A stretch of DNA of 64,000 bases from positions 3,224,001 through 3,288,000 of the forward strand of contig NZ_CP134949.1 in assembly GCF_032116555.1 (NCBI RefSeq), read 5' to 3'. The position numbers were made by a program, and so were the translations under genes. The notes under the pieces are model-generated. The model ran no database searches, had not been told where the DNA came from, and saw only the letters and a list, made by a program, of their open reading frames with translations. The stretch comes from Halobaculum sp. XH14 (GTDB taxonomy: Archaea > Halobacteriota > Halobacteria > Halobacteriales > Haloferacaceae). This document shows positions 11,743 through 15,653 of the stretch, piece after piece (position 1 is the first letter of the stretch; each line of letters begins with the position of its first letter).

Positions 11743-12360
11743 CTACTCCGGGGGGGAGTCGTCGGCCGCCTCGATCACGAATCGGACCGACGCCTCCACG
11801 GCGTCCCGCTGTTTTGTCGACGGCCAGGCGTTGCGCGGGAAGTACTCGTCGAGGAACTCCGCCCGCTCGGCGGCCGTCGCGTCCCCGATCCGCTTCGCGT
11901 AGTGGTTGCTCATGAAGTCGGCGAACGCGCGGGCGTTCCGGGCGTGGACGTCGCCGTGTTCCTCCCGGACCCGCTCGACCAGCGCCTCGTTGCGCGCCTC
12001 GACCGCCTCCCAGTCGTCGGGGTCGTCGGCTCCCGAGAGCGAGCGTTCGGCGGCGCGCGAGGTGTCCTCGATCCGCTCGACCCGGGCCACGCCGTCGTCG
12101 AGCCACTCCTCGGGATGCAACACGAGGGTGTCGTCCGCCTCCCGCACCCGCGCCGTGTAGTCGTGTTCCGCCAGCCGTTCCCGCCGGTCCTCGCGGTACG
12201 CGGCCGCCTCGTCCCCGTCGACCGCCTCGCGGGCCAGCCGTGTGAGTCGCTCCGCGGCCTCGACGACCGGTTCCGGCAGTTCGTCAGTGGGGTCACTGCC
12301 CGAAGTCGCCCCCGAACCAGCCTCCCCCGCCCCGTCGCCGCCGTTCTGCTCACCCGTCAT
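11743..12360 (-). CDS. RnhA-operon protein (DUF7108-like)
   Basis: A 205-residue soluble acidic protein with a disordered Gly/Ser/Asp-rich N-terminus (1-28) and a helical body containing EAAERLTRLAREAVDGDE, DYTARVREADDTLVLHPEEW and NHYAKRIGDATAAERAEFLD. It has no catalytic or metal-binding motif. Its start overlaps the end of rnhA by 11 bases, so the two are translationally coupled. Families at this position in haloarchaea are known simply as rnhA-operon proteins; the DUF number is from memory. Confidence 0.75.
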   Translation of the reverse strand: MTGEQNGGDGAGEAGSGATSGSDPTDELPEPVVEAAERLTRLAREAVDGDEAAAYREDRRERLAEHDYTARVREADDTLVLHPEEWLDDGVARVERIEDTSRAAERSLSGADDPDDWEAVEARNEALVERVREEHGDVHARNARAFADFMSNHYAKRIGDATAAERAEFLDEYFPRNAWPSTKQRDAVEASVRFVIEAADDSPPE

Positions 12361-12943
12361 CGAACGCCTCGTTCGCCAGTTCGTCCGCGCGCTCGTTGAT
12401 CTCGCGGGGAACGTGTTCGAGCGACCACCGGTCGAACCCCTCCAGCAGTTCGCGAGCCCGAACCCGCTTCTCGCGCAGCGTCGGCTCGTTCACCTGCCAC
12501 TCGCCCCGGACCTGCTTGACGACGAGTTGGGAATCGCCCCGCAGGTCGAGTTCGGCCAGGCCGTAGTCGCGTGCGGCCTCCACCGCCCGGACGAGCGCGG
12601 CGTACTCGGCCTTGTTGTTCGTCGTGTCGTCGATACGCTCGGAGCCCTCGGCGACGACGCCGTCGCTCGTGACGATCGCCCAGCCGACGGCTGCCGGGCC
12701 GGGGTTCCCGCGCGAGGCGCCGTCGAAGTAGACGTGGCCGCGGCCGCCGCCGTCCTGAAGCAGCGTCGTCAGCCGCGCCGGGTCGCTCCCCTGCACGACG
12801 ACCTTGTCGTCGTAGGCGACCGCGGTCGCGCCGCCGTGTTCGGCGCGCCAGCGCTCGTGGTCCGTGTTGCCTCCCGTGACGGTGACTCCGGCCGCCGCGA
12901 GCCTGTCCCTGGCGGCGCCGGGATCACCCTCGATAACCGGCAT
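12350..12943 (-). CDS. rnhA: Ribonuclease HI, archaeal type
   Basis: Degrades the RNA strand of RNA/DNA hybrids. Residues 70-197 form the RNase H fold with the four catalytic acids D74 (YFDGASRGNPG), E113 (NNKAEYAALV), D137 (RGDSQLVVKQV) and D187 (NERADELANEAF). The N-terminal 65 residues are an archaeal extension (KVVVQGSDPARLTTLLQDG). The frame is open upstream, but MPVIEGDPGAARDRLAAAG is the natural start. The product is 197 residues. It heads a two-gene operon and is divergent from the TFB gene. Confidence 0.94.
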   Translation of the reverse strand: MPVIEGDPGAARDRLAAAGVTVTGGNTDHERWRAEHGGATAVAYDDKVVVQGSDPARLTTLLQDGGGRGHVYFDGASRGNPGPAAVGWAIVTSDGVVAEGSERIDDTTNNKAEYAALVRAVEAARDYGLAELDLRGDSQLVVKQVRGEWQVNEPTLREKRVRARELLEGFDRWSLEHVPREINERADELANEAFDDG

Positions 12944-13067
12944 ACTCCCCGATCCGACCCCGCGCGGCGAAAGCGTTCCGCTCCGGCCGTCTCGGTTCCC
13001 TCGATCGGGCCGCCGCCGGCCCCTTTCGGTCGACCTGCCACGCGAACTTTCAAGTCCCACGCGAGGG

Positions 13068-13080
13068 ATAATATAAAACT
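13068..13080. promoter_or_regulatory. AT-rich TATA-like tract between rnhA and tfb
   Basis: ATAATATAAAACT is the only AT-rich run in the rnhA-tfb intergenic region. It lies 3 bp before the TFB ATG at 13084, too close to be its TATA box for a leaderless start. It would give rnhA a leader of roughly 100 nt, or it drives a shorter TFB starting downstream. A weaker element near 13046-13054 is the alternative for tfb. Confidence 0.4.
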
Positions 13081-13083
13081 GCG

Positions 13084-14064
13084 ATGACACGGCCCACCCG
13101 CCAGCGCGAGGGAAACGAGCGACGAGAGTGGCGAGACAGTGGGGAGTCGGAGACGACCGAGGAGACCGACGACGTCGACCTCGACGAGGTGGACGAGGAG
13201 GATCTGGTTCGGACGGGCGACGGCGAGTTGATGCACGAGCCGACCGGCATCATCCTCGAGGAGGACCGGATCGACCCCGGTCCCGAGTGGCGCGCGTTCA
13301 ACCACTCCGAGCGGCAGGAGAAGTCCCGCGTCGGCGCGCCGACGACGAACACGATGCACGACAAGGGGCTGACGACGACGATCGACTGGAAGGATCAGGA
13401 CGCGTACGGGCGGTCGATCTCCTCGAAGAAGCGCTCCCAGATGCATCGGCTGCGCAAGTGGCAAGAGCGGATCCGCACGAAGGACGCGGGCGAGCGCAAC
13501 CTGCAGTTCGCGCTCTCGGAGATCGACCGGATGGCCTCGGCACTCGGCGTTCCCCGGAGCGTCCGGGAGGTCGCGTCGGTCATCTACCGGCGCGCGCTGA
13601 AGGAGGACCTCATCCGCGGCCGCTCCATCGAGGGCGTCTCCACGTCCACCCTCTATGCGGCGTGCCGAAAGGAGGGCATCCCGCGCTCGCTCGACGAGGT
13701 CGCGGAGGTCTCGCGCGTCGAGCAGAAGGAGATCGGCCGAACCTATCGCTACATTTCCCAGGAGCTCGGCCTGGAGATGAAGCCCGTCGACCCGAAGAAG
13801 TACGTCCCCCGGTTCAGCTCCGAACTCGAACTCAGCGAGGAGGTCCAGAACAAGGCGAACGACATCATCGAGACGACCGCCGAGCAGGGACTGCTCTCGG
13901 GCAAGTCCCCGACCGGCTTCGCCGCGGCGGCCATCTACGCCGCCTCCCTGCTCTGCAACGAGAAGAAGACCCAGCGCGAGGTCGCCGACGTCGCCCAGGT
14001 GACCGAGGTCACCATCCGCAACCGCTACCAGGAGCAGATCGAGGCGATGGGCATTCACAGCTAG
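13084..14064 (+). CDS. tfb: Transcription initiation factor TFB lacking the zinc ribbon cysteines
   Basis: TFB, the TFIIB homologue, bridges TBP-DNA and RNA polymerase. The 326-residue protein has a full B-reader/linker ([37 protein letters not shown]) and two complete cyclin folds with a C-terminal helix-turn-helix ([21 protein letters not shown]). The first 100 residues contain no cysteine at all. Where zinc-ribbon TFBs carry the second CxxC, it reads [14 protein letters not shown], and the first CxxC is absent. The remainder is close to canonical TFB, so it is not a pseudogene. It may recruit polymerase differently or act as a modulator. Confidence 0.93.
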
Positions 14065-14387: not shown

Positions 14388-15653
14388 ATGAAGCTGGACG
14401 ACTTCATGGAGTTCGAGGTGAACGAGCGCGCCGAGCGCCGCCGCCTCGCCTCTGAGAAGTCCTACGAACTCCTCGATCAGATGGAGTCGTTCCAGCACCG
14501 GTTCGAGGAGGCCACGAGCGGCGACTCCATGTTCGGCTCCGTCTCGCCGTCCATCTTCGTCGGTCGTTCGAACTACCCGAAAGTCTCGACCGGGATCCTC
14601 TCGCCGGTGGGCCACGAGGCGGACGCCGCCCGGTTCGAGACGAACGCCGGCTGGTACGACGAGGGCGTCTCCATCTCGGACGTGTTCGAGCGGCGCACCT
14701 CGCTGCTCAACTCCAACCGGGCGGCCGACGTGACGAACGTCCACGACGCCTGGGACGGCTTCCTCGGCACCCAGCGCGAGGTCGCCATCGCTGACCGCCC
14801 GGTCGACGTGGAGATCGGCCTCGACGACGGGCCGGACCTGGACTTCGACGTCACCGAGGACGACGTCGCCACGCCGACCGGCCCGCGGGCGCGGGCCGAA
14901 TCCGCGAAACTGACCGAGAACCCGCACGTGCCGCGGCCGGTCGAGAAGACGCTGGAGGACGACGACTGGAACGCCGAGGGCGCGATGACGTACCTCTACC
15001 GCCGCGGGCTGGACGTGTACGACATCAACACGGTGCTCTCGGCGGGCGCGCTCGGCCGGGGCGAGAACCGACGGCTCGTCCCGACCAGATGGTCGATCAC
15101 CGCCGTCGACGACACCGTGAGCAAGTACCTCCGGGGAACCGTCCGAGACGCCCCGAGCGTCGACTCCATCCAGGTGTGGCGCAACGAGTACCTCGGCAAC
15201 GCGTTCTGGGTCGTGCTCGCGCCCGGCGACTGGGAGTACGAACTCGTCGAGATGAAGGCGCCGGGGAGCATCTGGAACCCGGATCCCGTGGCGGGAGTTG
15301 CGATGTCGAGCGCCCACGAGAACCGCGACGGTCGGACCGGCTACGTCGACGAGACGGCGGGGGCCTACTACGCCGCTCGACTCGGCGTGCTCGAACACCT
15401 CTCGGCCGAGGGGCGCCAGGCCAAGGTGCTCGTCCTCCGGCACGTCTCTGACGACTACTGGGGACCGGTCGGCGTCTGGCAGATCCGCGAGGCGGTCCGC
15501 AACGCGTTCGAGGGCGAACACGGCGAGGCCGAGACGTTCGCCACAGCGGTCCGGTCGGTGGCCGACCACCTGCCGGTGTCGCCGGGCCGTCTCCGGTCGA
15601 AGTCCACGATGGTCGCGGGACTACAGTCGAGCCTCGCGGACTTCGGGGCGTAG
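14388..15653 (+). CDS. nreA: DNA repair protein NreA
   Basis: Archaeal Nre protein of 421 residues, a PCNA-associated family implicated in repair of mitomycin C-type damage. Recognisable segments are SVSPSIFVGRSNYPKVSTGILSP split across residues 50-72 and NSNRAADVTNVHD. Later come EKTLEDDDWNAEGAMTYLYR, the core IQVWRNEYLGNAFWVVLAPG and KVLVLRHVSDDYWGPVGVWQ. The last residues, QSSLADFGA, form a PIP-box-like motif (Q413, L416, F419) for PCNA binding. The N-terminus shows no cysteine zinc finger of the kind some Nre proteins carry. Confidence 0.9.
   Translation: MKLDDFMEFEVNERAERRRLASEKSYELLDQMESFQHRFEEATSGDSMFGSVSPSIFVGRSNYPKVSTGILSPVGHEADAARFETNAGWYDEGVSISDVFERRTSLLNSNRAADVTNVHDAWDGFLGTQREVAIADRPVDVEIGLDDGPDLDFDVTEDDVATPTGPRARAESAKLTENPHVPRPVEKTLEDDDWNAEGAMTYLYRRGLDVYDINTVLSAGALGRGENRRLVPTRWSITAVDDTVSKYLRGTVRDAPSVDSIQVWRNEYLGNAFWVVLAPGDWEYELVEMKAPGSIWNPDPVAGVAMSSAHENRDGRTGYVDETAGAYYAARLGVLEHLSAEGRQAKVLVLRHVSDDYWGPVGVWQIREAVRNAFEGEHGEAETFATAVRSVADHLPVSPGRLRSKSTMVAGLQSSLADFGA

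Follow-up and report, generated by a model that had tools for sequence, protein, structure and literature searches.

The tfb gene at 13084-14064 of the window (the whole stretch of 64,000 nucleotides of Halobaculum sp. XH14 DNA that was analysed) encodes a member of the TFB/TFIIB family in which all four cysteine ligands of the zinc ribbon have been replaced, and this cysteine-free ribbon is conserved across nearly all sampled genomes of the window's family. Judging from sequence conservation and structure prediction, we consider it probable that the protein is a working TFB, the ribbon of which folds without structural zinc and still docks on the polymerase. The gene and the parts of its product are as follows.

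13084-14064, plus strand: tfb gene, encoding the TFB of 326 residues with a cysteine-free ribbon (open reading frame; NCBIfam PRK00423; Pfam TFIIB repeats).
13084-13176, plus strand: residues 1-31, the conserved start MTRPTRQR followed by a variable acidic tail (18% identity; pLDDT below 50).
13177-13260, plus strand: residues 32-59, the cysteine-free ribbon (conservation in 72 distinct orthologue ribbons; predicted strands).
13180-13191, plus strand: residues 33-36, LDEV at the site of the first CPEC, with a hydrophobic pair in place of the cysteines (column counts in both orthologue types; alignment of 21 cysteine-free ribbons).
13234-13245, plus strand: residues 51-54, HEPT at the site of the second CxDC, with His51 and Thr54 in place of the cysteines (conservation in 49 cysteine-free TFBs; alignment of 21 cysteine-free ribbons).
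13273-13473, plus strand: residues 64-130, the intact B-reader/linker, from DPGPEWRAF on (95% mean identity among orthologues; GPEWRAF invariant).
13486-14043, plus strand: residues 135-320, two cyclin-fold (TFIIB) repeats (Pfam PF00382; PDB 1d3u_B).

By homology, the product belongs with TFB/TFIIB, as it combines two cyclin repeats and a B-reader/linker with a match to the full-length TFB profile (NCBIfam PRK00423, 427.7 bits, cut-off 384), and the TFIIB core repeats of Pfam PF00382 were recognized in two stretches (172.9 bits). Among solved structures, its closest counterparts are archaeal and human TFIIB; PDB 1d3u_B was matched both by sequence and by fold, and Foldseek aligned 296 columns with the TFIIB chain 7nvu_M. 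The first-pass annotation had described the B-reader/linker and both cyclin folds as intact, and these profile matches, together with the 95% identity of the reader and linker, bear this out. The protein does not, on the other hand, carry the four Cys/His ligands of a zinc-ribbon TFB/TFIIB, the ligand positions being occupied by L33, V36, H51, and T54. In fact, Pfam Zn_Ribbon_TF scored 16.9 bits on this protein, under its cut-off of 29, and 62 and 66 bits on two four-cysteine relatives, the genome's own paralogue (L002) and an orthologue (L183), respectively. An absence of cysteine had previously been noticed for the first 100 residues; we find that it extends over residues 1-193, with the first cysteine being Cys194 in the first cyclin repeat.

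Cysteines hidden upstream under another start, which would have offered a trivial explanation, are ruled out by an in-frame stop codon in the region preceding the gene.

13048-13083, plus strand: upstream region with the TATA-like TTTCAAGT (13048-13055), an in-frame TAA (13069-13071), and an A/T-rich element by the ATG (sequence; similar elements before orthologues).

Here, only four sense codons remain between the TAA and the ATG. We infer a TATA role for TTTCAAGT, a box found at a comparable place upstream of the tfb orthologues, and its position would fit a start near the ATG at 13084. Immediately 5' of this ATG there is also an A/T-rich element near TATAnAAAnGCG (13066-13083), which is conserved in both the cysteine-free and the four-cysteine orthologues and is distinct from the TATA-like box, which sits about 30 nucleotides upstream; this element is perhaps a regulatory or initiation site.

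A comparison of the two orthologue types shows how the ribbon has changed. The canonical orthologue ribbon reads CPEC, five residues, LVK, and then GELVCxDCGL, whereas the cysteine-free ribbon reads (L/P)(D/E)(D/E/N)(V/L/F/I/M), four residues, LVRT, and then DGELIHE(E/P)TGL, its loop being shorter by one residue. Thus, the first cysteine is replaced by Pro, Leu, or another apolar residue, the second by an aliphatic residue, Phe, or Met, the third by His, and the fourth by Thr, so that a hydrophobic pair takes the place of the cysteines of CPEC (e.g., LDEV or PEDL) and CxDC becomes HE(E/P)T. The earlier reading of the second-CxxC region agrees with what we see at residues 47-60, but the first-CxxC segment, which had been regarded as missing, has been substituted without loss of register (LDEV for CPEC), with the deletion being limited to one residue of the loop. 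Across 49 cysteine-free TFBs, divergent subfamilies included, His51, Thr44, and Gly55 are invariant and Thr54 is at least 90% conserved, while in an alignment of 21 cysteine-free ribbons His51, Thr54, Glu52, and Asp37 are all invariant. Asp32 is almost invariant in the cysteine-free orthologues.

The first-pass annotation had proposed asking whether the cysteine-free ribbon is conserved at the rnhA-tfb locus of related genomes, and this proves to be so, since a looser pattern detected it in 134 of 148 genomes sampled from the window's family, and in 120 of 129 if those of high quality are counted alone. The closest relatives, in Halorubrum, Haloferax, Halobellus, Halogeometricum, Haloquadratum, Halobaculum, Halonotius, Halohasta, and others, are likewise cysteine-free and bear the signature RTADGELIHE(E/P)TGL, and 73 orthologues with distinct N-termini share the same ribbon. 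When 394 genomes from the order were scanned with a pattern, the signature proved to be nearly confined to this family, with TFB exceptions in G160 (family f4) and G303 (family f7); pattern matches in G122, G231, and G286 fell in another protein and represent no TFB. Among the 295 genomes scanned in the phylum (sampled at one genome per species), the signature was absent outside the family. Family-wide conservation and codon statistics together rule out sequencing error or decay as the cause of the cysteine loss. Accordingly, the earlier proviso that orthologues might keep four cysteines and this sequence carry a local error fails within the family, where the loss is conserved, but is correct in that orthologues in other families do keep all four.

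Mean pairwise identity in the ribbon core is 77.4% among 73 cysteine-free orthologues versus 76.4% among 39 four-cysteine orthologues; that of the acidic N-terminal stretch is 18%, and orthologues share 92-95% identity in the cyclin folds. With a ribbon core no less conserved than its four-cysteine counterpart, these alignments show a domain under purifying selection of equal strength and not one in decay, which would fit a zinc-free contact with the polymerase. When cysteine-free sequences alone were used, AlphaFold2 placed strands at 41-43, 49-51, and 56-58 (pLDDT of about 60-70, with flanks below 50), and for the four-cysteine sister/paralogue, taken as a control, at 33-35 and 42-44 with a bridge at 50, at comparable confidence. 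The strands predicted in the cysteine-free ribbon thus occupy positions equivalent to those of the four-cysteine paralogue, and the three-stranded ribbon fold is predicted to be kept, albeit with moderate confidence from runs that used alignments of close relatives alone and the protein without zinc.

Two neighboring genes served as synteny markers for the locus.

12350-12943, minus strand: rnhA (type I RNase H), the divergent neighbor (open reading frame; divergent upstream in orthologue loci), named for its motif and by the H. volcanii gene order.
14388-15653, plus strand: nreA-like DNA repair gene, the downstream neighbor (open reading frame; downstream of the orthologues on the same strand), presumably encoding NreA, in agreement with the H. 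volcanii order HVO_0732/HVO_0734.

A divergent rnhA lies upstream of tfb at all 33 four-cysteine loci and at 60 of the 69 cysteine-free loci, and nreA follows tfb in the same orientation in both types, at loci whose flank reaches that far. As this synteny is common to both types, the family's cysteine-free gene and a canonical four-cysteine TFB are positional orthologues. Indeed, four cysteines are kept by the rnhA-tfb-nreA orthologues outside the family (Natrialbaceae, Halobacterium, and Haladaptatus) and also by one member of the family itself (G272). In H. volcanii, RNaseH-E is HVO_0732 and NreA is HVO_0734 (PMC7776575), and therefore the Haloferax volcanii orthologue is presumably, by synteny, HVO_0733. 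The same gene order is found in five other Haloferax species. The literature that we searched, a coverage outside of which many subscription papers fall, yielded no description of HVO_0733.

Regarding origin, the shared HExTG motif favours the ribbon itself having arisen once, as far as the sequences allow. Core trees did not reject a single clade of cysteine-free orthologues (p-AU 0.063), with the core-protein and DNA trees having low signal, odd base composition, and suspected gene conversion between paralogues, such that they do not separate one loss from several. Divergent cysteine-free TFBs, some of them from other families within the order, were also found (L041, L153, L154, L209, and L210; L142; L148/L194; L174/L205; L202), and Halobaculum-like genomes have a divergent subfamily with the same signature (L041, L154, L209, and L210), which L142, L148, L174, and L202 carry as well. 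By its core, L148 clusters with a TFB from the same genome that has four cysteines; this suggests a ribbon exchange or a second origin. Moreover, the cysteine-free L020 and the four-cysteine sister L132, both from G007, form one group in the core DNA tree, and here gene conversion or shared base composition is suggested.

The window genome (3.68 Mb, 99.9% complete) contains nine further intact-looking TFB genes, every one with ribbon cysteines, in keeping with the supposition that this cell has several TFBs. It also contains a TFB-like pseudogene with three in-frame TGA codons (locus L010, G000:C1:2744927-2745769). Within the family, the signature of the four-cysteine sister was found in 141 of 148 genomes, and a few genomes retain just one of the pair. 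In the Halonotius-like G174, G372, and G657, the cysteine-free gene is present, and the four-cysteine sister signature was sought there but not found. In three genomes of genus g3 (G004, G189, and G220; loci L255, L256, and L257), rnhA adjoins nreA and the TFB gene has been lost, so that this type of gene is, on such gene content, dispensable. No high-quality genome in the sample is without both the sister and the cysteine-free or rnhA-linked gene, an absence that is not significant at these counts. The retention of one or the other gene would be compatible with overlapping functions, the numbers being small.

What we envisage is a zinc ribbon rebuilt as a metal-independent one, with all four cysteine ligands gone, in which a small hydrophobic cluster together with His51 and Thr54 would stand in for the zinc site, perhaps aided by the high internal salt. 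With TBP and the BRE bound by the cyclin folds, such a ribbon would dock on RNA polymerase, and the polymerase would be recruited as by any TFB, with no need for zinc or reduced thiols. Since reader, linker, and cyclin folds are all conserved, ordinary roles in TBP/BRE binding and open-complex formation would be expected from family membership. The cysteine-free TFB would serve alongside its four-cysteine sister and could be lost where the sister remains. Docking could, alternatively, be altered rather than kept. As a tentative suggestion, to which we give limited credence, the protein may be an initiation factor independent of zinc and thiols, retained to sustain transcription when zinc starvation or oxidant stress disables the four-cysteine TFBs, or it may present a retargeted docking surface that gives polymerase complexes a distinct promoter choice.

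The invariance of His51 and Asp37 in the 21-sequence alignment, and the near-invariance of Asp32 in orthologues, might instead mean that zinc or another divalent ion is bound weakly through His51 and the acids Asp32, Asp37, and Glu52, much as the H. volcanii TFE-alpha with its one cysteine keeps a weak, stabilizing zinc binding (PMC5861453). We deem this rather unlikely, since hydrophobic residues or proline mostly stand at the two equivalents of the first CxxC and a good zinc ligand is kept at one canonical position at most. Threonine, as at position 54, is moreover a poor zinc ligand. The first-pass annotation had offered as an option that the protein is a competitive modulator, its cyclin folds binding TBP-promoter complexes while polymerase is poorly recruited, so that other TFBs would initiate less at the promoters they share with it. 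The highly conserved cyclin folds, the presence of the four-cysteine sister in most genomes, and the fact that the gene can be lost would all agree with this. Nonetheless, a pure competitor needs no ribbon conserved as in canonical TFBs, nor the about 95% conservation of a reader and linker that are needed once polymerase is recruited, and the Halonotius-like genomes retain the gene with no sister detected; this option is thus unsupported, and we judge it distinctly improbable.

Another reading is a general reduction of cysteine in haloarchaeal proteins, with function unchanged and no special regulatory role. Such a trend has been suggested for haloarchaeal TFE-alpha (PMC5861453), where the fourth ligand is likewise changed from Cys to Thr. 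We find this very improbable, because the nine other intact-looking TFBs of the window genome keep their ribbon cysteines, and the loss in TFE-alpha is narrower: the degenerate ribbon (CPETG, first CxxC gone; loci L231 and L237 versus L242 and others) occurs only in G007 and G009 among the 30 genomes sampled. Since, in addition, the TFE-alpha of the window genome keeps three cysteines (CEVD, CPEC), the change in TFB is a separate and wider one, and a co-loss of the TFB and TFE-alpha ribbons, which we considered, was not seen in these 30 genomes.

In archaeal and Pol II initiation, the zinc ribbon of TFIIB/TFB counts as the universal element for docking the polymerase. The conserved cysteine-free ribbon suggests that this docking domain can work without zinc. 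Being natural, and present in a family to which the genetic model Haloferax belongs, it offers a direct test of whether zinc is required for docking or for folding only, and also of whether a metal-free TFB is maintained to cope with limiting zinc or with oxidants. We came across no description of a cysteine-free TFB in the literature searched, many subscription papers being outside its coverage.

Compared with known systems, the window TFB has the same two cyclin repeats, B-reader/linker, and predicted ribbon strands as canonical TFB/TFIIB, including the rnhA-linked orthologues and its own paralogue L002 (81% identical), and it shares with canonical TFB the non-cysteine ribbon residues GEL, G-L-I/V, and EE, and with the four-cysteine rnhA-linked orthologues the start motif and locus. 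It differs in the four replaced ligands, the deleted loop residue, and a longer acidic N-terminal stretch. A parallel in the same lineage is the basal initiation factor TFE-alpha/beta of H. volcanii, which has also lost most or all of its metal-binding cysteines: TFE-beta is without its Fe-S cluster and yet binds TFE-alpha, the latter has a degenerate ribbon with one cysteine and holds zinc weakly, and these changes have been ascribed to lineage-specific adaptation, perhaps cysteine reduction (PMC5861453). TFE-alpha is, however, a different factor that still has one cysteine and binds zinc weakly, and its cysteine loss is narrower in spread among the sampled genomes. Arabidopsis AtBRF5, a TFIIB-like factor with no N-terminal zinc domain and one cyclin repeat (PMC7865254), is likewise a paralogue within the TFIIB family that has no zinc ribbon; unlike AtBRF5, the window TFB has both cyclin repeats and a ribbon that is retained, rebuilt, and conserved.
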